NCBI GenBank assembly: GCA_027382625.1
Contig: JAJKFJ010020950.1
Span: 124,001 to 188,000, forward strand
DNA length: 64,000 nt
DNA from: Tetmemena sp. SeJ-2015
Lineage: Eukaryota; Ciliophora; Spirotrichea; Sporadotrichida; Oxytrichidae
Reading direction: 5' to 3'
In this document: piece after piece, positions 8,328-62,375 of the stretch
Layout of the letters: the number at the start of each line of letters is the position of its first letter
Position numbering within the stretch: position 1 is the first letter of the stretch
Position numbers and translations under genes: made by a program
The notes under the pieces: model-generated
What the model saw: the letters and a program-made list of their open reading frames with translations, nothing else
Told to the model about the DNA's origin: nothing
Databases searched by the model: none

Positions 8328-8462
8328 TGTTGAGGTGGCTGATTGAAATAGATTTATAAGAAACCCTTATTACAAATTAATTTCACCTTAGATTGAAAGC
8401 AATAATCTTAAAAATCTTATTGAAATTGCGAAGTTAGTATTTCCCAAAAGAAGAAGAAGAAG

Positions 8463-11400
8463 ATGAAAGTAGTTTCACAACCCCCACTTCAATTTAATGG
8501 GCAGCAGTCAATGTAAATACTCCCCTTGAATTGTGAAAAATCAGTTTCAGAGACTCCAAGCACCGTCCAGTTTCAGGAAAATACGCGTTTCTAGGCTGAT
8601 AATGCAGTACACATGGTCTTTTAGAATAAAGTGAATGCTAAGAATGCTTTTGAATTTGACCTGGACTTTATCTAGGATTTGACAGCTTTAGTGAGAGATA
8701 AAAAGGAGCCCAAGGAATCTTCATGGCTGAGAGCGAGTGCATCTTTAGATGCGGGCACAAAGATATACGCCTTTAGAGTAGACCAGGTTCATCAAGACAC
8801 TTATAAAATTCTGGGAGGCCTCCACAGGCAAGAGCAGAATGCTAAAAACTTAGTCGATCTTACCGGCTAAGGTAAGGGTGATGCATCTGGAACTGGAAAC
8901 GAGCAGGATCTGTTCAACATGCTTAGCGGCCTTGCTGACTAAGATTAAAATGCAGCTTCCAAGAAAGCAGGTAAAGGGAAACCTCAAGTGGGTATGACTT
9001 TTACAGGAGGAGAAAGAACTCTTGAGAAGGATACTAAGAACTTAGATGTGACCCGTTTTGATATCGAGGCTGAGATCGATCCTTTATTCAGATAGCGTAC
9101 AGCTAGGTTTGATGAGGCGGGTGCTCGTAACCTCCTCATAAATATCACTAATATAGATAAGGGACTCAACATATAGTTAGACTCAGAGATAGCAGAAGCT
9201 AATAAGTTAAAGTACTACAAGCCCTTCAAACGCAAGCAAGATAAGACCATAGATGAGATTGAGCAGGAGTAGACGGAGCGCATGAAATTGAATAGATGGA
9301 ATTCAGAGTACTTACTCTTCTGCAAAAGTGTTTTCAGAGTTGAAAGCACAGATACACTCTGCAGCAATAGGATGTCTAGGGAACTTGATATGAAGCGCAA
9401 GGAGATTTATGAGTTTATGGGAGGAATAAGAGTCAAACAAAAGCGCAACAATCAATAGATGCAGGTTGAATAGCAGAATAGTGAACTGAGTATAATCCAC
9501 TCTGAAATGATGACAGAGATGGATGAGCTGGACAGATTCATTTAAGATGTTATAGAAAATGATGGGAAAAAGCCACAGATTGAATAGATGCCTCCTCCTA
9601 TCGTGAATCAAAACTTTTAACAGTTCAATTAGGAACCTAAGTAAAAGGCTCAACATCATTAAGGTGCTTTCTTGGCTGGGGACTTTGACTCCTAATCCAT
9701 GAGTCACTCAAGATATCTGGATCCTTTTCATTAGAATCCCTCAGAGACTATTAACCAAGGGCAGGATAATATGCATTACTAGCAAGAAGGCTTTCACCAA
9801 GCTTAGTAAGAAAACTTTTACCCCTAGGGCCAGCATGATGACTAAATGCAGATGGACTATAGATAAGACTCTCACGCTGGGTAAAGTGACTATGGAGACC
9901 AAAATAGTCATTTCGAGTACTAGAACGATCAAGATCAAATAGATGATGAGATTGAAAATGAGATGCAGCAAGAGTAACTTGAGGATTAGGCTGAGATGAA
10001 TCTCTTTGAAAAAGCCATGAATAACGAAGCCCCAGTTACCTCAGAAGAGCTTAGAAACTAGAATAGACGCATCTCAGAGGAGAAAAAAGATTAGACTAGG
10101 ATGAGTGATCTCCAGGATGCTTAGAAGATGCTAATGATGGATGGAAGATTCAAGCAAAATAATTAGCTAGGGTCTGGTAATCAGAAAGTGTTCGATGATA
10201 TGAAAAGAAGTTTACAAGTAGGGGATGGAGAAGGAAGTATCCTTGACACAGATTTGCTCAGAAAGGATAAATAGAAGAGAGAAATTAAGAAGCGAATGAT
10301 CGATGACGAAGTCTTGCAATCTTATGATAAGGTCCTACCAGTTGCTGCTCCAACTTAATATACTGAATCTCATTCTAATAGCAAACACGAGAAAAAGCAT
10401 ACCTCATCAGCTTCATAGCAGAAATAAAATGCCTAGGAAAAGACCTTACAGATTGAGAAATATCTTAAGGATACTAGAATCAAGGATATCAAACCTCAAC
10501 ATCTAATCAGATTTGAGGTCAAAGAGCTTCATAATATTGCTAATAGGAACTAGTAAAAGTTTAATCTGCAATACTATGAAACTCACCCTCTTAAAAGGCT
10601 CTCAAGGCTATTTTGCAGAACATCTTGGATGAGAATCGCTGAAATAGATCCTTCTAATATCGATCCCCACAGCATTTAAAATCTCAATCTTGGAAGAGGG
10701 TTGGAACACTCTGAGCATTAAAAGACCTAGACCACCTCTAACCATACGATGGATATGAAAAACTTCTACGAGCAGTATCTGGGAGTAGAGGGTGGACTCT
10801 CCTTATAAGATGAGCTTAATGATCCTAATCCCATGCTCTCACTTCTTAACCCAGAGGACGGAGGGAGTCACATCAGTATGCAAAGTGGCTTTAGTTACAG
10901 AAAAGAAGGTAATGAGATGTCTAGCTATTCAAGCTACGGGGGTGGAGGAGGACTGTCGGTTGGAGATGGTGGCTCTCATTTATCTTTCATTCAAGAGAAT
11001 ACCAGCAGAGTGCTAACTAATTAAAATGATGAGGCCAAGGAGTGTGGGAACATCGCTAATATCACTGATCTACTAAGTGAAATCACACCACATAGGAAGC
11101 ATTAGAATTTGCAGCTTCTGATTCAGGATTTCTCAATTTGCTAAATTGGAGGTAGCAACTAGGAAAAGATAGTCAATCCAGTACAGCCAGATGCTGAAAA
11201 TGAGTAGCCATAAAAGAAGAGACTGAAACTCTTTCAAAGTTTCTTCGATAAGTAGGATGACTAAGATCAAAATCAGCTTGAAACTGATTAGCAAATTCTC
11301 AACAGGATTCTGCAGGCTAAAAAGTTTGATATCAAGCTCCTAAAGGATGAGATATGGAAGGTGCTAGAAAATGAGATACCAGTTCTTGATCACAGGTCCC

Positions 11401-11939
11401 AACGAAAAATAGTTAAAAAGCAGTTGGGTGCAAACACAGTGGATGAGCTAGTAGCCTAAGATCCAGATAATGACCTTAGCTTTATGGATTTAATTCAAGG
11501 ACTCCCTCTTAATCTGGAGAATGAGGAGATCATCTCAAGTCTTTCCGTTCATACTACATTTGTGTGCATCCTCCATCTAGCTAATGAACACAAACTGCTC
11601 TTGAAATAGTCTGTAAAAGACCTTAATAAAGGACCCAATTAGCAAGCCAATCCTTTAGTAATCAGAGCCTAAAATGAAAAGGCGATGAGTAATATGTTCG
11701 TTGATTTAGGGTAGGAATCTTTCTTTTCTGGGACCTCCAACTCAATCATAAGCCATTACCCTCCTCCAACTCCAAATGCTTTTGTCTTAGGGGATCAGAG
11801 TAAATCTAAAACTGCTCCACTTGCTCTGCAGTTAGTTGGTTTATAATAAAATCCAAACAATCTAGTACCCCCTAATGTTTTACAGCTAGGAGATCTTTTT
11901 GAAGATTTCAATCTCTACATGGAAAAAGCTCAGTACTGA
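8463..11939 (+). CDS. ncaph: condensin complex kleisin subunit CAP-H (Barren)
   Basis: A single frame of 1158 codons, TGA at 11937-11939, with no intron or IES and about 60 in-frame TAA/TAG codons read as Gln. CAP-H is the kleisin that bridges the SMC2/SMC4 heads in condensin and holds the HEAT subunits, and is needed for chromosome compaction and segregation. Recognised by the N-terminal block NAKNAFEFDLDF (about residue 57), LDAGTKIYAFRVDQVHQDTY followed by KILGGL (about 90-118), FDIEAEIDPLF and FDEAGARNLL (about 197-225), and the C-terminal SMC-binding helix block FVCILHLANEHKLLL (about 1030). The family is usually 700-800 residues; the extra length is acidic, Q-rich linker. The start at 8463 is the first ATG after an in-frame TGA and follows a lysine-codon run; a short extra N-terminal segment elsewhere cannot be excluded. 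Confidence 0.88.
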
Positions 11940-24796: not shown

Positions 24797-25956
24797 ATGA
24801 GTGAAAGCAGCACAAAGAATCTCAACGACCTAACAACAACCCAATAAAATAATCTGGACGTCACTCTCTAGTAATAAGTTATCCCTAATTAATTTAAATC
24901 ACCTTTTATGATGTGATGTGTTTTCCATTTTACTTTAACTATAATGAGTCCTCTTACTTGAATGACACAGAGATTCGTCAACATCAAACTGCTCCCTTCG
25001 GAGAGTTGGAAGTCAATGGAAGTGAGAGCGCAATTGATTTCTCCACAGCCAAAGTGGGTGGTGGTGATCCTACCTATTTATTGAAGCTATTAAAACTTTA
25101 AACTCCGCTAATAGAATTGAATTTATAGATAATTGAGAAAGAGATGAACTCAACTCCTGATATAAGACTGGACTAGCACATATTAAGAGAGCCGCCTTAG
25201 ATTCCTCCAATTCTACCAGAGCAGCAATTTTACCTGACTGCTCTCAACGGGAACGATAGTATGGCTATGGACGGAGATGCCATCGAACTTCAAATTGAAC
25301 AGCAAAGAAAGAGCCAGCAGCAAAGCTAAAAGCAATTCTCTGCCAAAGTTTCATCAATTAAATCCCTATGTACTTATTTTCAACTATTTAGAGTATTTTT
25401 CATGTAAATTTCAGATTAGATCTCATTTTTCGAACTATAGAAGGAGGAGAGAGCGAGAGTTAAAACATCCACAACTTGTATTCCTAAGAGGAAATCGACA
25501 ACTTCAGGTGCATTTTCGATATGTTCATCATTTGAGTATCATCTACTCATGTTTAAGTTGATGTTCGACAAGGACAAGAGTGGATATATAGATGTGGGTG
25601 ACCTGCAAACCATCATGCGCAGTCTAGGAAGAGACCCTCATGAGGCTATTGAACTAGTTTCAAGCATCGAACTCTCTCAAGAAAACAAACTCAGCTTCTT
25701 TGAATTCCTAAAGATCATGAGAACTTTAAACAACCCATATCTTAATTAGTTTATGCATATGTGCGTGTGTGTATGTGTATGTGAGTTAACTTTGGAGAAT
25801 AGAATGATCTCTGGGAAGGAAAACAATGACGAGCAGTCTCCGAGAGAGGCAGACCTCGAGGAGAGAACCAAATATGGAACGCTCCTCCCCAGAACTGGAG
25901 TTCATTTCTTGCCTGACTCTAAAGTCGTAGACCTACTCAAGTAAGCAGCATTCTGA
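24797..25956 (+). CDS. EF-hand (centrin/calmodulin-like) calcium-binding protein
   Basis: ATG at 24797 (MSESSTKNLNDLTTTQQNN); TGA at 25954-25956. The N-terminal half is low complexity. After the ATGTTC IES is removed, the sequence reads EEIDNFRCIFDMF and then DKDKSGYIDVGD, a 12-residue EF-hand loop with D, D, S, Y/I, D and D in the usual positions, followed by LQTIMRSLGRDP as in centrin and calmodulin. A second, degenerate hand follows (SSIELSQENKLSFFEFLKIM). The tail contains MCVCVCVC, encoded by a GT repeat, then an acidic segment. An AT-rich break near 25330-25480 probably holds an intron or another IES. Probably a calcium sensor; the cellular role is unknown. It lies about 165 bp upstream of the casein kinase gene. 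Confidence 0.7.
25527..25566 (+). other. IES, pointer ATGTTC
   Basis: 40-bp insert between ATGTTC at 25521-25526 and 25561-25566. Removal rebuilds IFDMFDKDKSGYID across the start of the calcium-binding loop, a strongly conserved stretch, so the boundary is well supported. Confidence 0.88.
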
Positions 25957-26120: not shown

Positions 26121-26997
26121 ATGCTAAAAGAGGGACAGGAAATCTCTGAGGGAAGATTCACGGTAATCAAGAAGTTAGGCTCTGGAGCCTTTGGTGAGAT
26201 CTATAAGGGTAAAATAAAACTTGTGTTGAGTGTCCCTATAGTGTAAAAGAAAAAGACGGGTGAGTTCTACGCAGCCAAGATTGTAAGTCAAATAAAAGCA
26301 GAGTGTGTTATGAAGAAAGCGAGTGCTGTAGTTGCAAACTTTAAACTTTTTTCATTTCTATCCTTACTGAGCTACCTCTGAGGATGCGATTGGATCCGTT
26401 CAAACCACTAGAAAGCAGAAAATTAAACTCCCACTATAGGAATAAGCGCAGAAGAACGCAAAACACGTGATGCTGTTTTGGGAGTCCAAGTTGATTCACA
26501 AGCTTAGAGGCAAAAGTAAGTACATCCTTTCCAACGATGGCCTAAATTAGATAACAGTAGTATTATACTATTCGATCTTGCATTTAGCCAATGAATTCCT
26601 GCGAAACTGGAGGATTTGCTTAACCCTTACTTTTTATAGCCTGCGTGCCTGGACTCTACTATGTGGGTACTGATCAAATGCAAGACAACAACAGCAAGCA
26701 GTTCCACGTTATGATTATGGATATGTTGGGGCCCAGCTTGGAGGACCTCTTTCAAGCATGCAAGCAGCAGTTTGACCTAAAGACAGTGCTTCTTATTGCC
26801 ATATAGATGGTAAGCCCTTGAACTTAGAGAGTGTAACTTATTAACCGTTGCCAATAGGTGAAGAGAATATAAAAGGTGCACGAGGAGAGGATTATCCACA
26901 GAGATATCAAGCCTGATAACTTCCTCATCGGCAGCACAGAGTCAACCAGAGACAACGTCTTCATTATCGACTTTGGCCTTGCTAAGTGCTACAAGAA
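26121..26997 (+). CDS. casein kinase 1-like kinase, segment 1 of a scrambled gene (N-lobe to DFG)
   Basis: ATG at 26121. Encodes the ATP loop [11 protein letters not shown],the lysine strand TGEFYAAKI, catalytic loop [14 protein letters not shown] and the metal-binding [11 protein letters not shown], all typical of the CK1 family of Ser/Thr kinases. GT-AG introns lie at about 26209-26241, 26283-26382, 26516-26639 and 26810-26857. The segment ends in the pointer TAAGTGCTACAAGAA (26983-26997), whose exact reverse complement is at 28033-28047, where the protein continues. Read straight on, the + strand lacks the QHIKFRDGKN part of the activation segment. CK1 kinases act in the cytoplasm and nucleus, and ciliates carry many copies; the particular substrate is unknown. 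Confidence 0.9.
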
Positions 26998-27021
26998 GAG
27001 GGAGGATATTTTGTGCTCATT

Positions 27022-27056
27022 AACTTGACTGGTACAGCCAGATATGCCAGCATAAA
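27022..27056 (+). CDS. casein kinase 1-like, segment 3 of the scrambled gene
   Basis: 35-bp coding segment for [12 protein letters not shown], the CK1 signature after the activation loop. It begins with pointer AACTTGACT (27022-27030), matched by its reverse complement at 27987-27995, and ends with pointer TATGCCAGCATAAA (27043-27056), matched by its reverse complement at 27952-27965. A 24-bp IES (26998-27021) separates it from segment 1. Confidence 0.9.
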
Positions 27057-27428
27057 GAATTGAGGACTTGAGATTTTTTGCCAGGCTCAAAATATCCAAA
27101 AATTGAAGGCAATCTAAGAATAATAAAGAGCAACCTAAACTTAAAAGCAATCACTGCTTGCTTTCTCATGAGATCAAAATAGGTTTATATAGTGGAAGAT
27201 ATTGAAGTGAAGAAAATTATAAACCTTTTACAAGAAAAAGAAGAAAGATGAATGAGCAATTGAGTTTATATAGTTTTAATAGAAAATTGTTTCAAACAAC
27301 CCATGCATTACACTCTTCCCTCACTTAGAGCAGCACAGTCTTCTCATTACCAACTACGAACGTAAGTATGTTTAAGTCTCCCTCTAGTGTTATACCCTAG
27401 TCGCTTATTACCCCTGGCCTCATCTCGC
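27057..27428. other. central spacer of the scrambled kinase locus
   Basis: 372 bp between the + and - halves of the casein kinase gene. It is mainly AT-rich to about 27290. The 27290-27428 part has a short reverse-strand frame beginning EMRPGVISDQGITLEGD, which matches nothing I recognise. Presumably eliminated during macronuclear development. Confidence 0.5.
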
Positions 27429-27965
27429 TCAATAAGGCTTCAGTGCGGCCTAGCCATCCTTGGGACCAACGGCCTTTGGCTTCTTCTTAATGACGTCGAG
27501 CACACTATTTTTGAGTGCCTCCTTATCCTTGCTAAGCCTATTTTGCTTCCAGGTGTAGTCTGTGGACTTAGGGTCAAATCCATTATCATGCATGCACTTA
27601 TCGAACAAGCGATTTACTACAAGTACAGTAAGTATAGAAAAGCCAATGAGGTAAGCATAGTCAGGGTCATCGTCGAACTTCAAGTTGCGGCAATATTCCA
27701 TGTAAGTCTTGAATTCTACGGGATGGCCCCTGCAGAGCTCTTCAAGGCTCGTCTCTAGCTTCTTCTTTTTGATGTTCTCATACTTCTACGATTTGCTCTT
27801 GCCTGGTAGTCCTTACCAGGGAGTGAGCCTCTTAAGAAGTAGAGAAGGACGTGGCCGATAGTTTCCAAGTCGTCTCTTCGTGATTGCTCTATAAAGAGTC
27901 GTTAGATCCAGATTTCTTAAGGGGAGATATTTACCTTGACCAAGATGGGTATTTATGCTGGCATA
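27429..27965 (-). CDS. casein kinase 1-like, segment 4 of the scrambled gene (C-lobe and tail), inverted
   Basis: Read on the reverse strand from pointer [33 protein letters not shown], then [48 protein letters not shown] and a lysine-rich tail ending in TGA at 27429-27431. This is the CK1 C-lobe, missing from the + strand half. An intron lies at about 27889-27934 (GTAAAT...TATAG on the coding strand). A 33-bp IES with pointer GCTT (coding strand) sits at 27611-27643. A further break of about 14 nt lies after RGSLP near 27810; removing it restores the frame. The usual Trp after the SLP motif is absent here, where SLPG is read. Confidence 0.9.
27611..27643 (-). other. IES, pointer GCTT (AAGC on + strand)
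   Basis: AAGC at 27607-27610 and 27640-27643. Removing 33 bp joins DYAYLIG to [11 protein letters not shown] in frame, as expected for the C-terminal helix of CK1 kinases. Confidence 0.8.
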
Positions 27966-27986
27966 CGATAAATAAAGAAACTGCTA

Positions 27987-28047
27987 AGTCAAGTTCTTTC
28001 CATCCCTGAATTTAATATGCTGGCCATCTGAGTTCTTGTAGCACTTA
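27987..28047 (-). CDS. casein kinase 1-like, segment 2 of the scrambled gene, inverted
   Basis: 61-bp segment on the reverse strand encoding AKCYKNSDGQHIKFRDGKNL plus T, the activation segment that is missing from the + strand half. Pointers: TAAGTGCTACAAGAA (28033-28047, shared with segment 1) and AACTTGACT (27987-27995, shared with segment 3). A 21-bp IES (27966-27986) separates it from segment 4. Confidence 0.9.
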
Positions 28048-30990: not shown

Positions 30991-33544
30991 ATGAGTGCAA
31001 GTACCGCAGCTGCCACAGCTTCCTTCAAGACCAAGGAGAGAAACCTCTTTAACCAAGTACTTGTAAGTTGCTGCAGTTAATAAATACTCAAGCTTACTTG
31101 AAATTCCTTACCACTGGAGATATAAATTTGCTTTAGACCATGTATGACAACAAACAGTTCAAGCAGTCCTTGAGAAATTATAGTATAATCAATTATCTCT
31201 ATTAAATTTTGAAATGAGAAATTGCGATATGGTGCTCGAGAAGCATCCAGATCATCCAGGTATGTCTAAATATCTTTGCAAGTCTTTTCTTGCTCACCAC
31301 TAGTATTCGATATATTTACCTTTCACAAGCAGAATTTATGATTGTTTCAAGCCTAGAAGAGCTATTTTAAGCAAGGTATTGTAACTTTCTATAATAGAAA
31401 CACTCGCCATGAAGGCCCTCAACCTCAGCGCAGTCAAGAGAAAGACAGAGGCATTTGATCTCATAAAGAAGGCGCTCTTCAAGAATCTCAGCAATTTCAC
31501 CTGCTGGCACGTCTATGGCCTCCTCCACAGACAGAACAAGTAAGTCTTCACATATCTTAATAATCTATGTTTAGAAACTGGGATGAAGCCAGAAAGGCCT
31601 ATCTTAATGCTCTCAAGTACGACAAGGAAAATCAAAATGTGCTCAGAGACCTAGTAGCTATTATAAAACTATATCTTTTGTATTTTAGTATGACCTTGGT
31701 CAACTTCAAATTCAGTTGAGAGACTACGAGGGCTACTGCGAGACCAGGCGCTTGGTGCTAGTATCAAAAGCCACTCTTAACATCAACTGGCTTGCCTATG
31801 CTGTTGCCAACTTCTTGGTAAGAATTTCTTTCAACCTACCTTCTCCTCTCACTCTCTCCCATTCATTCATAAGAATCAAACTCATTCTAACTACAGTGCA
31901 AAAACTACGACAGAGCTCTGGAGGTGCTGGAGTCATTCGACAAGACTCTCCTCGACAACAAGGAAAAGCTCAAGCCCCACGAGCGCTCCGAACTCAGTCT
32001 CCTCAAGGCCAAGATCTACTGAGGACAAGGGTGACTTCAAGAAGGCAATTAACATTCTCAAGGGCAAGAAGAACGCAGTCATTGACCAGACTACCTTGCA
32101 TCAGAGATTAGCCAACTGCTATCAGAAGCTCGGAAACAAGGAAGGAGCCATTGCTGAATTGGAATAGCAACTGTCTCTTAACAGCTCCAACTACCAGACC
32201 TATTTCCAAATCCTGGAGGTGCATGGCTTTGCCAACAAGGACAACAAGTACACTCAGGACGAGCAGAAGAAGATCAAAGAGATCCTGGAAGAGTACGAGA
32301 AGGGCTTCCCTAAGTCCAACGCTCACAAGAGAGTGCTGCTCAAGATCCTCACCGGAGAGCTGTTCAGAGACAAGCTCTACTCCTATGCACAGCCTCTGCT
32401 TGAGAAGGGAGTGCCTCCTTTCATTAAGGACCTCAAACTTGATGTATATGGCGATACTGAAAAGGCCCAGATCCTGCAGGATATGCTTCAAGCCCACCTC
32501 AAGTCTATGGAGGAGTTCTGCACTCTCCACAGAGATGAGAAAAGTGAAGAGCAAGACCCCACTGTGTATCTCTGGCTGCTCTACTACACCTCTCAGCACT
32601 ACTACTATGTGAAAGACTATCCCAAGGCACTTGAGTACATCAACAAGGCCATCGAGCACACACCAACTGTCATCGACCTCTACATCCAGAAGGCTAAGAT
32701 CTACAGACGCATGGGAGACCTCAAGTACGCTTCCAAGCTCTATGAAGAGGCTAGAAAGCTTGACCTAGCAGACAGATACCTCAACGCTGTCTCCTCTCGT
32801 TACCTAATCCGTATCGATGCTCTCCAAGAAGCTGAGGAGGTGATGGCTCTTTTCTCCAAGGAGAGCCCTACTGAGGGGCTGAACGTGCACGATATGCAGT
32901 GCATGTGGTACGAGAACGAAGTGGGCTACTCCCACCTGCGTCAGGGCAACTACCGCCTCGCCCTCAAGAACTTCAACTACATTGAGAAGCACTTGGAGTA
33001 GATCTGGGAGGACCAGCAGGACTTCCACCTCTATGCCATGCGCAAGTACACCCTTAACTCCTATCTGCAGATGCTCTCCATGGAGGACAAGCTCTACCAG
33101 AACAAGAATGCCGTCAGAGCAGCACTCGGCATGCTCCAAGCCATCGAGAAGATCACCGTCAGCGATGAGGTGCTCGAGGAGGAGAGGAAGAAGAACACTG
33201 AGCAGTTCGAGGAGTTCAAGCAGTCCAAGGAGTACAAGGACCTCGAGGAGGAGCAGAGAAAGAAGATAGAGGATGACGACGAGTTCAGGAAGGACTTCGA
33301 CCCCTATGGCTTCGACTAATACGACAAAATCGTAAGCATTCATAGCATTATATTTCTATCATCTTAACCCTTGTTTAGTTGAAAGACCCAGTGCAGGCAG
33401 CTCTCAGCTTCGCTACTTTAGTCGCAGATGCGAATCCTGAAGAGAAAGAACTTCATACTAAGTTGCAGTCCTTCAAGGAGAAGAAGAGTAAGCAAAGAGA
33501 TTTAATATAATGTACTTATAGACTTAGCAGCAGGCAAGGCTTGA
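30991..33544 (+). CDS. naa15: NAA15, auxiliary TPR subunit of N-terminal acetyltransferase A
   Basis: ATG at 30991 (MSASTAAATASFKTKERNLF) and TGA at 33542-33544, about 690 residues after removing introns and one IES (human NAA15 is 866). NAA15 is the scaffold of cytosolic NatA: its TPR helices wrap the NAA10 catalytic subunit and tether it to ribosomes. Family marks: VLEKHPDHPGETLAMKALNL near the N-terminus, RDYEGYCETRRLVL, KALEYINKAIEHTPTVIDLY, KAKIYRRMGDLKYASKLYEE and ARKLDLADRYLN. GT-AG introns lie at about 31063-31136, 31259-31400, 31541-31574, 31653-31689, 31819-31896, 33331-33378 and 33489-33521. The frame breaks by one base at 32017-32021 (TAC-T-GAG), which breaks an otherwise conserved TPR; this is probably a sequence error. 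GC content is clearly higher than the surroundings, suggesting high expression. Confidence 0.92.
31180..31223 (+). other. IES, pointer TGAGAAATT
   Basis: 44-bp AT-rich insert between exact 9-bp repeats at 31171-31179 and 31215-31223. Removal joins NKQFKQSLRN to CDMVLEKHPDH in frame, within the conserved N-terminal TPR of NAA15. Confidence 0.92.
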
Positions 33545-51299: not shown

Positions 51300-52973
51300 T
51301 CACTGGTTAGCTCTCTTGATCTGCTCTTTGATGTCATCATCCGCTTCCTCATCGCGAGAGAGTGAATCCTAGCAACTTATCTGATGAGTGGAGCTGTAGT
51401 TATCAAACTTTCCGAAGCCTGCATTCGTATGTCCACCTGCACTCTCACTGAACTGATAACTTTGCTTCACACCATTATAATTGCTGCTCTAAGATTGGTT
51501 ATGACCATGGGCGCTACTGTAGTTTTAGTTGCTCAAGCCACTGGGATGATAGTTATTGGCTTGATAGTTACTTGAAGAGTTCACAGCGTTGAAGTTTATC
51601 GACTGGTTCATATTCTATACACTTCCATTGTTCTAAATCTTGCTGTAGTAGTTCTCAATGTACTTCAAAAAAGTTTTTATAGCCACACAATAAAGAAATT
51701 GAGGATTAAATTCAAAGACTCTTGATAATATTAGGGCTAAGCAGGGATTGCAGCATTTTGAGGGTCATTTCCGCCAGAAGTATTCTAGTGCTCATAATTG
51801 GGAGGGAGCTTATTGTAATTCGCTTAGGCCGCATTATCTGGCTCCTCATCTGAGCTACTCTCATATTCGGGGAGTCCTTCTAAATTCAGAGGTGGGACGT
51901 TCTAAGGTCTAGAGCGAATAAGAGGACGGCCAGTCACAAGTCTGTCGTAAGAGTCGTCTGATCTGAAGCTAAATAAGTTCTTCGCATCATCGTTCAACTC
52001 TGCATACATTTACTCTTCAAGGTTAGGGTTATCATCTAAGAATTCCTAAAAGCGAAGGGTGTGGATATTCTTCACACTCCTATCGAAGATATCATTCACT
52101 GGGAAGCCCTAACTTTGAAGGAGGAAAACTAGGTAAACAATCTTCTTCTCTCTCAGACGGAAGTAATTCAAATCATTATGGAGGCCTTAGCAAATTTTGT
52201 TTAAATCCAAGTTTTGAGTTACCATAAAATGCTCATCCAATAAATAATTTTACTACCAACTCGTTCAGCTAAGCAAGAATCTGCTTTCTTGAACCTGGCC
52301 TCGGCTAAGTCATAGATATTTAAGCATTTGGATTTGAAGCTATCAACGAAGATAGATCTAATTAGGATGAGGGGCCGTCTGTTCTCTTGGATTATAATTT
52401 TTCAAAGCTCTATCTAGAATCACTATTCTCTCCTCCTCCATTTTAGTTAAAGACTTGACTGTCTTTTAATGAATCTTACTTTCTCTTTAGTTTCTCATTA
52501 TCATTTTTGCAAATTTCCAGTTACCTAGATTTGTCTTCTAGTTCCTCCTTCAACATTTGAATAGTCTTTATTTATTCTTCACACTTAGACTTTACTCCTT
52601 TCAGTTCAAATTCCGCTTGCACTTTCTGCTAAGAAAGTTATTCATAAGTAGGCCTTGAAATGGGGGAAGGTTAGCTTGATTAGTCTTGACTCCTTTTTAT
52701 GTAGTCATCATAGGCTGCCTTTATCTTTCTGAGCAAGCTGCCGAAGTGTTTGTCTTTTTGAATCACCTCTTGGAAAGTTTAGTCGAAGGCTTGCATTTTC
52801 ATACCCTCATTATCGGAGGCCTCCTTCAATCTATTTGTAAGTTGTTTCTCAAGTTGAATAACGTCATTTGAGAAATTTATTTGAGAATCTGGGGAGTCGT
52901 GGTGATTGGGTTTCTTGGAATTTGCTTTACTCAATTCTGGCCTATCAATCTAAGGCTTGGATTAATCATACAT
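51300..52973 (-). CDS. TSNAXIP1-like coiled-coil protein
   Basis: ATG at 52973 (MYDQSKPQIDRPELSKANSK), TGA at 51300-51302. Near the N-terminus: VIQLEKQLTNRLKEASDNEG, then QTFQEVIQKDKHFGSLLRKI and KAAYDDYIK. This layout, a short helix then a helix ending in K.EYD-like and a long coiled coil (ELKGVKSKCEEQIKTIQMLK; RQLEICKNDNEKLKRK), matches the N-terminal region of translin-associated factor X-interacting protein 1, a cilia-associated family. The middle block NYFRLREKKIVYLVFLLQSQ with GFPVNDIFD also fits. The C-terminus is acidic, then N/S/Q-rich. Interruptions near 51630-51720 and 52220-52260 look like IESs or introns. The family assignment is from recall of the pattern, not a search. Confidence 0.5.
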
Positions 52974-53194
52974 TTATGATGAGATACCACTTTCTTGAAC
53001 ATTCTTGCTTTAATCTTTCTATCCAGTGCTGTTAAAACAAAATTTTTATTTAAAAATTGATTGAGATATGAAAATAAAATTAAATTAGGTGAATTTCAAG
53101 TAAGTTTAGACAAGTAAATGATCTTAAATGCAATAAAATTGCATTTGAATTCAGGAATAAGAAAAATTTAATAAGAGATTTACACTCAGATTTT

Positions 53195-59900: not shown

Positions 59901-62375
59901 AGAAGAGGGAGAGAGGAGGGAGGAAGGAGAGAGGATAGGGAGGAAGAAGGAGGGGGGAAAAGGGGGGGGAAGAGAGGGGGAGGGGAGAGGGGGGAGAGGA
60001 GGGAGGAGAAGGAGGAGAGGGAGGAGAGGGGGAGGAGAGGGAGATGGAATAATAATTTCATTTGTAAATTATATATTCATAATGGCAGAGCGTAGAATTC
60101 ACAAACCTATTTATCATCTCTACCATTTCTCTTTTTTAAAGATCTAAAAAACAAAGAGTTTAGTAAACCATTGAGCTTATTATTTCATTTGGATATAAGT
60201 ATTGAGCTTAGCCCTAATTCACATAAATTAACAATAAACTTCTTGACTATTTTTTTTCTTTAGTTGAGTTGATTGACAAGGTAGAACTCCTCAATACAAA
60301 AGAGATACTTCTAATGAAACTCAAATAATGAGTAGGTATCAAGAATCAGCTGAGTTAGAGTGCCTTTACCATACAACTCAACTACCATATTCGATAAATG
60401 AGCTTATTATGAATTAAAGAGCATTGAGGGGAGAGCTAAAGAGTATAGAGCAGAGTTCAAGGATACCTTATTGAAATCAAAACTCCTTAAAATCTAAAAC
60501 CAAGAGAGGAAGAACCTAAGCCAACGACAATCAAAATACTTTAAGTTAGAAATAGCAAGACAAATGAAAATATATTTGTATTTTTTCAGCAATCAACTAA
60601 TCGTATTTGACCTATATTAGAGAGTTAAATTTTACAAACTTTGGAAATTATTGAAGCACTATGATGATGAGGGATACTTGATTACTGCAGGCACCCCTGG
60701 CGAAGACATGTGGACAGACGGTAAAAGAGATATTGAAGCTTAAAGACAAGAACTTGAGAATCAAAAAAAGAGTCTAGTACCTGGTCATGCCTATAGTGTA
60801 ATTCAAGCAAAGGAAGTAAAAGGCAACAAGCTTCTCTAAATAAGAAACCCCTGGGGGAACTTTGAGTGGAACGGAGACTGGAGTGACTAGTCAGAGCTCT
60901 GGACCCAAGATATGATAGAGATCCTCAAGCCATCTTTTAATTGATATCATTCTAGGTTTTAATAAACTGAAATATCTTTTGACAAGAACGATGGACTATT
61001 TTGGATGAACTTCTAGGATTTCACAGAGAACTTTGATAGTGTTGACATCTGCAGAATTAGAAACTGGGAGGAGTGCAGATTAAGAGGTAGATTCGTACGC
61101 TTCCAAGATTCTGAGAACAGCACCTTCGACTATACTCAGTCCATTTGGATTTATGCTCTCGATGTCCCCCGGAAATCTCATGTCATAATAACTCTCAGCT
61201 AAGAAGATGAGCGCATAGAAGGAGTTCTACCTAAGAGAAGTTTAATAGACACAGGCATTGTAATTCTGAAAATGGATAAGGAGTAGGGTAGCAGCCTCCA
61301 CGCTTCAAGAGACTTCTAGATAGAGCGAAATATCGAGATAGAGCTAGTCCTAGAGGCTGGTTAGTACATGATAGTGCCAAGAACTTCAGGGATCAGCTTG
61401 AAAAAAGAGGAGAAGACTTCCTCAGGTCCTGGCTCAGTCAAGATGCTAGACTCTTAGGGCAACCTACATCCCTTACTAGCTTCTACTGTAAGGGACATTT
61501 TCAATAAGTTCGATGTGACTGCGAATTAACTGATTGACCTCAAAGAATTCAAGGGTTTCTTGGAGATTCTGTCTACCCCTCATCTTCCAGCAATAAAAGA
61601 CGAGAGAGGGTACCAGGAGTAGATTTTGTCAAAGTACAATTCTACCCCTCAGGGCATAACCCTGAGAGGGTTTTATGAATGGTGGAAAGCTCAGATAATC
61701 AGCGAGGGAGATGCTGCCATTTGGGAATGGCTCCTCAAGCTTGGATATGATAAAGACTTGAACTCACTCAGATCCAGAATCTTTACTAAACCTAGAATTT
61801 CATTTCTATTTTGACCTTTGAGAAAATTGAAAATTGGTAGTTCATCACTATTTCTTTTCTTATTGAAAGTGGGAATAGGTTTATAACTGTGCAGAGCAGA
61901 AACCTTGAAGTAGAGGGAGGATCGATAGAGTGCAGAATCAGAGATGCCATCCCAACTGATATCGATTCAAGAGTGAACGAGTTACTTCTAGAATCTAAAG
62001 GCCAGCCACAAGGCTCCGGTTAGAACTATCAAGTCCTCTGCTCTCAATCACTCTCTGCCTCTGCAGTAGTTAATAATTGTGCTTCTTTTATAATTCACGA
62101 TAATAACTAGCAATTTCACATTATAAATGAAATTAATAGTGTACACTTATGGAGTGAAGAATACAAGTGCCACAAACCCTATTGAGATAACTTTTGACTT
62201 GAGTGAATGCGTTCTCCAAGGAGTGAAGCACCACACCAGGAGCGAGATCATTAAGAAATTAGTCAAGCCAGGTGAAGTTGAATTCCTCGCTCATATCGTA
62301 CCAGCTTAGGGCCAACCATTCAACGTGAATACAATCAAGCACACTGCTAAAGAGCTGCCTGCTAAGAAGAAATGA
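56941..62375 (+). CDS. calpain-type cysteine protease, interrupted by IESs and a giant purine tract
   Basis: ATG at 56941 ([20 protein letters not shown]); TGA at 62373-62375. Calpains are papain-fold, usually calcium-regulated cytosolic proteases. All three catalytic positions are present: Cys in [15 protein letters not shown] (about 58010), His in [13 protein letters not shown] (about 60785) and Asn in [15 protein letters not shown] (about 60845). Domain order: N-terminal extension, protease core with IHWRRPKDF and [18 protein letters not shown], beta-sandwich domain (about 60970-61400), and a helical stretch [20 protein letters not shown] resembling a degenerate EF-hand, then a C-terminal beta-rich part. 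GT-AG introns include 57181-57262 and 57784-57819. The core has a long inserted linker between 60250 and 60690. One-base frame breaks occur at 57673-57676 (C run) and 58080-58083 (T run). Confidence 0.85.
57939..58000 (+). other. IES, pointer TATC
   Basis: 62-bp insert between TATC at 57935-57938 and 57997-58000. Removal joins NKIEP to [11 protein letters not shown], directly before the catalytic Cys, in frame. Confidence 0.8.
58185..58233 (+). other. IES, pointer TATCC
   Basis: 49-bp insert between TATCC at 58180-58184 and 58229-58233. Removal joins DDYIPC to [15 protein letters not shown], conserved in calpains. Confidence 0.85.
58541..60044. repeat. 1.5-kb purine-only (G/A) tract inside the calpain gene
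   Basis: Almost entirely G and A on the + strand with about 30 pyrimidines by eye (about 2%), as irregular GGA/GGGA/GGAA units rather than a clean repeat. It lies between calpain coding blocks ending near [14 protein letters not shown] (58410) and resuming near [20 protein letters not shown] (60260), so it falls in an intron or IES. TAATTTC occurs at 58498-58504 and 60053-60059 as a possible flanking direct repeat. A proline/serine/leucine frame of about 500 codons on the reverse strand is just what a C/T-only strand gives and is not a gene. Confidence 0.85.
61786..61883 (+). other. IES, pointer TTTA
   Basis: 98-bp AT-rich insert between TTTA at 61782-61785 and 61880-61883. Removal joins NSLRSRIF to [14 protein letters not shown] in frame. 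Confidence 0.65.

Follow-up and report, generated by a model that had tools for sequence, protein, structure and literature searches.

Is the casein kinase 1 (CK1) locus in the 64 kb stretch of DNA analysed here (the window) the germline form of a scrambled gene, or does its arrangement have another cause? Along the chromosome the order is M1 on the plus strand, a 24-bp spacer, M3 on the plus strand, a 372-bp loop, M4 on the minus strand, a 21-bp spacer and M2 on the minus strand. The segments are both out of gene order and inverted: the odd segments are consecutive, and the even segments are reversed in order as well as inverted. The odd/even pattern with inverted even segments that the initial annotation had described is thus borne out (M1 M3 -M4 -M2, pointer word 123321, a return word), and the four segments and the two spacers lie where it had placed them. 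We regard it as highly probable that the locus is the micronuclear precursor of an odd/even scrambled CK1 gene (return word) of a hypotrich-like spirotrich that reads TAA and TAG as Gln. The locus consists of the following parts:

26121-26997, plus strand: M1 (MDS 1), from the start codon to kinase subdomain VII (...DFGLAKCYK), with pointer 1 at its 3' end and four GT-AG introns
26998-27021, plus strand: spacer between M1 and M3, 24 bp, presumably an internal eliminated sequence
27022-27056, plus strand: M3 (MDS 3), 35 bp, 12 bp of it outside the pointers, coding for the core of the activation segment
27057-27428, no strand assigned: loop from M3 to the coding end of M4, presumably eliminated DNA beside M3; its right part probably contains the gene's 3' untranslated end (minus strand)
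27429-27965, minus strand: M4 (MDS 4, probably 4 plus 5), kinase C-lobe and tail, with the stop codon at 27429-27431
27966-27986, minus strand: spacer between M2 and M4, 21 bp, presumably an internal eliminated sequence; the allelic contig differs by one base
27987-28047, minus strand: M2 (MDS 2), 61 bp, 37 bp of it outside the pointers, coding for (CYK)NSDGQHIKFRDGKNLT

The outer limits 26121 and 27429 hold as coding ends but not as MDS ends; the true 5' end of the M1 MDS lies upstream of 26121. Likewise, the sizes of 61 and 35 bp first given for the interior segments are correct with the pointers counted in, and the unique parts amount to only 37 bp (M2) and 12 bp (M3). On the minus strand a single stop-free frame (27429-28047) runs from M2 through the 21-bp spacer into the start of M4, as if the spacer replaced the kinase residues GTAR.

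At all three joins a short exact repeat ends one segment and starts the next one in gene order:

26983-26997, plus strand: pointer 1 (M1/M2), copy ending M1, TAAGTGCTACAAGAA, 15 bp
28033-28047, minus strand: pointer 1, copy starting M2, exact match to the M1 copy
27022-27030, plus strand: pointer 2 (M2/M3), copy starting M3, AACTTGACT, 9 bp
27987-27995, minus strand: pointer 2, copy ending M2, exact match to the M3 copy
27043-27056, plus strand: pointer 3 (M3/M4), copy ending M3, TATGCCAGCATAAA, 14 bp
27952-27965, minus strand: pointer 3, copy starting M4, exact match to the M3 copy

The lengths of 15, 9 and 14 bp agree with the earlier description, and the 64 kb window contains just two copies of each pointer, one on either strand. 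Just outside the pointers only 2-4 of 15 positions are identical on all six sides, so that the repeats are short and sharply delimited. All three pointers are nested as inverted repeats within a span of 1.07 kb. When the locus was folded as single-stranded DNA in a model, pointer 1 paired with its partner at 15 of 15 positions and pointer 3 at 14 of 14, and pointer 2 at 0 of 9. A fourth inverted 9-mer, GCCAGCATA, is located inside pointer 3 (27046-27054, plus strand) and inside M2 (28016-28024, minus strand); aberrant joins could use it as a cryptic pointer.

Joining M1-M2-M3-M4 with one copy per pointer gives a sequence of 1472 bases with five GT-AG introns of 33, 157, 124, 48 and 46 bp. Four of these were tested; the 33-bp intron was placed by eye with support from the alignment.

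26209-26241, plus strand: intron of 33 bp, GT-AG, in frame if unspliced, absent from the relatives P0002-P0004 and P0006
26283-26439, plus strand: intron of 157 bp
26516-26639, plus strand: intron of 124 bp
26810-26857, plus strand: intron of 48 bp
27889-27934, minus strand: intron of 46 bp (in M4)

At the site of the 33-bp intron, 12 additional residues are present in the Stylonychia entry P0001. The joined frame reads TAA and TAG as Gln, and many PF00069 matches across the assembly also read through in-frame TAA and TAG. The genetic code of Euplotes differs from this code. The best protein match, among the best 120 of at least 7995 candidates, is casein kinase I of Stylonychia lemnae with 78% identity over 96%, and no protein in the same set of 120 exceeds this identity. 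In a multiple alignment with five relatives the identity to the S. lemnae CK1 is 82%. Stylonychia is a hypotrich; together with the use of TAA and TAG for Gln this closest named relative, although only one protein, points to a ciliate of the hypotrichs or spirotrichs.

The encoded domain is a full-length CK1 kinase domain, with one frameshift in the DNA (see below). Aligned to the five relatives, the joined product passes all three joins and runs through the activation segment without a gap, as had been proposed, and the tiny M2 and M3 encode conserved kinase residues. In a structure search CK1 enzymes (3sv0, 5fqd, 1csn and others) head the best 60 of 1282 matched sequences. The likeness to the CK1 family covers the whole kinase domain including the EQSRRDDLE stretch, and nothing in the protein is unusual. 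Since the gene contains GT-AG introns, one could think of splicing or trans-splicing that joins the pieces at the RNA level. However, the joins are located at exact DNA repeats within the coding frame and not at GT-AG ends, and half of the pieces lie on the opposite strand; the chance that RNA joining explains the locus appears negligible.

The initial annotation had called the CK1 protein complete. The joined order does restore it, but M4 carries a one-base frameshift, and further downstream in the gene an insertion:

27811-27823, minus strand: frameshift, one base missing in the C run before the TGG of SLPWQG (between SLP and WQG)
27611-27643, minus strand: insertion of 33 bp, in frame, without GT-AG ends, with GCTT repeats at 27640-27643 and 27607-27610

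The frameshift is either an assembly error or a real lesion. It lies outside every pointer and also outside the allelic contig C1681, which starts at 27844. A search over splice choices yielded no open frame, and fixing the four obvious introns exposed the one-base frameshift. An intron of 14 nt at the site was considered and rejected: judged by eye, it would remove the conserved WQGLP, the codons of which are intact. Assemblies can lose a base in C runs.

The 33-bp insertion is absent from the five aligned relatives, and its omission restores YLIGLFDKCM as found in them. It is likely an ordinary unscrambled IES with a 4-bp pointer. Because of the GCTT edges and the restored residues, M4 probably comprises two MDSs. 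In one of the CK1 paralogs described below, L018, an insertion of about 75 bp was seen by eye at about 2885-2965 (G000:C2934), near but not at the site of the 33-bp insertion; perhaps it is an IES whose pointer is TA.

A search of the assembly (146.2 Mb, 5213 contigs) with the whole locus returned 18 matches, namely the locus itself, contig C1681, and matches of 70-82% on contigs C4316, C2934, C902 and C2884. A rearranged or near-identical joined CK1 copy was not found among these 5213 contigs. A 20-base conserved 18S pattern had no exact match in the assembly, so ribosomal DNA may be missing from it or differ from the pattern. Contig C1681, which begins at 27844, represents an allele or haplotig with 97.7% identity over 6 kb. 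It repeats the order M4 start, spacer, M2, and over its first 400 bases it departs from the locus only by a single base of the 21-bp spacer and by an indel in the right flank. Positions 26121-27843 are present on one contig only.

The other matches represent CK1 genes of the same genome. From the match table it had seemed that these paralogs might be scrambled as well, but their sequences proved collinear. In L017 (C4316), L018 (C2934) and L019 (C902), which may be alleles of one another, one block each spans joined positions 753-1226 and hence all three joins at about 71% identity. L020 (C2884) aligns in order with two blocks, 777-970 and 1003-1254, the first of which spans all three joins. 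In the joined locus 259 of 330 covered residues are identical to the Stylonychia protein, a closer match than any of the four paralog loci gives (L019 233/328, L017 232/328, L018 222/313, L020 153/288). The strongest single block in a genome-wide search with the Stylonychia protein is located on C4316 (79% over residues 127-285), because the gene is unbroken there.

These data bear on two other readings of the locus. In the first, a scrambled gene with the germline layout described above has since become a pseudogene: the frameshift in M4 killed it, and the collinear paralogs act in its place. Both the lesion at 27811-27823 and the existence of the paralogs would fit, and the long open frames at 8424-11936 and 31694-33379 argue that indel errors are not very common in the window. 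Yet there is a single lesion only, in a C run of the kind in which assemblies are prone to lose a base, the remainder retains the 82% identity to the Stylonychia CK1, and none of the four paralog loci comes as near to the Stylonychia protein. We therefore consider a pseudogene unlikely. The second reading, an inversion or mis-join in the long contig, draws on the single contig that covers 26121-27843 and on the allelic contig that begins within the locus. Sorting the order (1,3,-4,-2) takes three inversions (its reversal distance), which rules out a single assembly inversion as the step from a collinear gene. In addition, M2 and M4 are only 21 bp apart and M1 and M3 only 24 bp, distances that any read would easily bridge; the order on the M4-M2 side recurs in the allele, and an artefact would not create pointers at coding joins. 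An assembly error of this kind is extremely improbable.

The scrambled CK1 gene lies among long frames, several of which could be assigned:

8424-11936, plus strand: condensin subunit 2
24805-25953, plus strand: EF-hand protein
31694-33379, plus strand: N-acetyltransferase A (NatA) auxiliary subunit
52236-53150, minus strand: TSNAXIP1-like frame
60945-61811, plus strand: calpain fragment

Pfam matches were obtained for 5 of the 30 frames submitted, out of 133 open frames of at least 150 aa in the window. The long uninterrupted frames suggest that the germline is IES-poor. Two long frames overlap on opposite strands (31694-33382, plus, and 32003-33358, minus) with few in-frame TAA or TAG; the minus frame had no Pfam match, and the plus frame is the NatA auxiliary subunit.

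Could three inverted matches of this length arise by chance? Among 3000 random pairs of 100- and 110-bp arms at similar distance, drawn from the whole window with the CK1 locus included, the maximum was two inverted exact matches of at least 9 bp, seen in 6 pairs; 196 pairs had one and 2798 had none. The locus itself has the three nested matches plus the stray fourth 9-mer. When the 64 kb window was scanned for triples (sum of at least 34 bp, gaps of at most 80 bp, within 4 kb), the CK1 locus was the only inverted chain and there was no direct chain; five shuffles contained neither. A scan of 258 kb of this contig with a distance limit of 5 kb gave 4 inverted and 4 direct chains; ten shuffles of the 258 kb together contained 4 inverted chains, which came from 3 of the shuffles, and 9 direct ones. 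With gaps of up to 150 bp the numbers rose to 18 inverted and 34 direct chains, versus 5-7 and 8-13 in three shuffles. The repeat chain alone is therefore not unique and no proof at genome scale. What excludes chance is that each of the three pointers falls on one of the protein joins, with order and orientation correct.

Under the stricter setting, the three other inverted chains in the 258 kb comprise one near-perfect palindrome and two at shuffle level, and two of the four direct chains exceed the shuffles. At L040 4109-4487 (G000:C2029:242109-242487) two 138-bp arms around a 103-bp spacer form a near-perfect inverted repeat, perhaps a small inverted-repeat element. A direct chain of seven exact 9-14 bp matches (sum 74 bp), above every shuffle, connects L031 9275-9541 with L032 2009-2224 (G000:C2029:99275-99541 and 102009-102224); it could be a related gene pair or another odd/even scrambled locus. 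Another direct chain, at L040 7947-8164 (G000:C2029:245947-246164), is made up of five exact matches that add up to 70 bp; its copies lie at a distance of about 125 bp, and it is probably an old tandem duplication.

Under the duplication-and-decay model, a spacer should resemble the segment that it replaces (PMC9797194). Here the unique parts of the segments and the spacers measure 37 vs 24 bp and 12 vs 21 bp, pieces so short that the comparison has little power. The score of spacer A against M2 was equalled by 1140 of 5000 background stretches drawn from the 64 kb window and by 251 or 492 of 1000 shuffles; for spacer B against M3 these numbers were 4863 of 5000 and 922 or 451 of 1000. The right flank scored no higher against M1 than 548-1465 of 1500 background stretches, and its score was reached in 485 of 500 or 806 of 1000 shuffles. 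By both measures, remnants of an inverted duplication were found neither in the spacers nor in the right flank. For the loop against M4, 57, 125 or 485 of 1500 background stretches scored as high under three scorings (first 100 bases of the loop: 48, 237 or 350 of 1500), and the score was reached in 16 of 500 shuffles (first 100 bases: 41 of 1000). This likeness is at most a hint of a duplication remnant, and given the number of tests we do not claim one. Either the scrambling event is old, or the arrangement arose otherwise.

The same comparisons touch on the possibility that the locus consists of two decayed fragments of an inverted duplication (M1 plus M3 and M2 plus M4) that are never joined and undergo no developmental rearrangement. 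Reciprocal decay would indeed leave interleaved complementary inverted fragments, and the marginal, scheme-dependent likeness between loop and M4 could be counted in its favour. However, the fragments tile the gene exactly once with exact overlaps of 15, 9 and 14 bp, beyond which the likeness is lost abruptly, the comparisons of spacer A, spacer B and the right flank are at background level, and the tiny M2 and M3 code for conserved residues. Decay without joining is thus very improbable.

From the observed layout, the exact and sharply bounded pointers, the protein order, the collinear paralogs and the allelic support on one side we infer that the cell rearranges the scrambled CK1 gene; the order of steps and the chromosome ends given here are our proposal. 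While the somatic nucleus develops, the two inverted copies of each pointer would recombine with each other. Recombination at pointer 1 would invert the DNA between its copies and put M2 next to M1, pointer 2 would then join M3 behind M2, and pointer 3 would finally join M4 behind M3. A block simulation of three nested inversions passes through two predicted intermediates, first M1-M2-spacer-M4 with an inverted M3 behind it and then M1-M2-M3-loop with an inverted M4. It ends with M1 M2 M3 M4, and the loop and both spacers come to lie together on the 3' side. A new chromosome end would form there, and fragmentation of the chromosome could remove this DNA from the finished gene. The telomere repeats CCCCAAAA and GGGGTTTT were absent from the 64 kb window. 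Parental RNA may guide the rearrangement; this, like the rearrangement itself and its steps, is proposed on the basis of work on Oxytricha and Stylonychia (PMC9797194; PMC2394655). Against the scrambled-gene reading count the missing rearranged copy and the missing 18S match in the assembly, the frameshift left in the joined frame, the single contig for 26121-27843, the missing telomere repeats in the window and the unpaired pointer 2 of the fold model.

Inversion by hairpin is a formal unscrambling operation. With the three pointers nested as inverted repeats within 1.07 kb, a single hairpin-like solution is possible: one alignment would resolve the locus by inversions alone, no circle would be excised at the scrambled joins, and the spacers would be removed as one 3' block by fragmentation. 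This is a speculative version of the proposed rearrangement, and we rate it as quite unlikely. If true, the CK1 locus would be a minimal natural test of purely inversional unscrambling.

How does the locus compare with known scrambled genes? For Oxytricha, ordered odd segments with the even ones behind them in reverse are described as a canonical odd-even pattern, called the return word, and 96% of the scrambled chromosomes can be explained by combining return words with repeat words (PMC5940158). A return-word example from Oxytricha trifallax reads M1 M3 M5 M7, then M6 M4 M2, with the pointers 123456654321 (PMC5940158). The topology is the same as that of the CK1 locus, since the return word implies inverted even segments. 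In contrast to the O. trifallax loci, the CK1 locus is shorter (three scrambled pointers), concerns another gene and contains one likely ordinary IES in the coding part. In actin I of Stylonychia lemnae and O. trifallax, which also has inverted segments, the pointers measure 3-19 bp, and without pointers the segments go down to 12 bp and the spacers down to 15 bp (PMC2394655). These ranges cover the CK1 pointers (15, 9, 14 bp), unique parts (37, 12 bp) and spacers (24, 21 bp). Unlike the CK1 locus, S. lemnae actin I with its order 3-4-5-6-7-8-10-(-2)-(-1)-9 shows no clean odd/even split; its rearrangement was followed experimentally (PMC2394655). The odd/even loci of Euplotes woodruffi are alike in that a less interrupted germline harbors scrambled genes, but there the scrambled 'pointers' are often long (median 48 bp) while those of CK1 are short, and the spacers often resemble the exchanged segment while the CK1 likeness is at background or marginal (PMC9797194). 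Scrambled chromosomes that need inversion are common: among scrambled nanochromosomes, the share scrambled by inversion alone amounts to 69.4% (Strombidium cf. sulcatum), 45.0% (Euplotes vannus), 37.7% (Halteria) and 21.4% (Oxytricha) (PMC10901763).

As judged by titles and the openings of abstracts, neither of the two papers that a literature search returned deals with a scrambled CK1 gene. The CK1 locus fits the known kind in each respect tested, and what is new is the single member, CK1 in this ciliate. Since the odd/even pattern is a classic one, the scrambling of CK1 is not very surprising and existing knowledge of scrambling is unchanged by it. The locus adds a well-bounded minimal inverted odd/even case with a family of collinear paralogs as an internal reference. 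It demonstrates that pointers and protein order, read from germline DNA alone, are enough to recognise a scrambled gene, and it offers a compact three-pointer locus for testing how inverted pointers are resolved.
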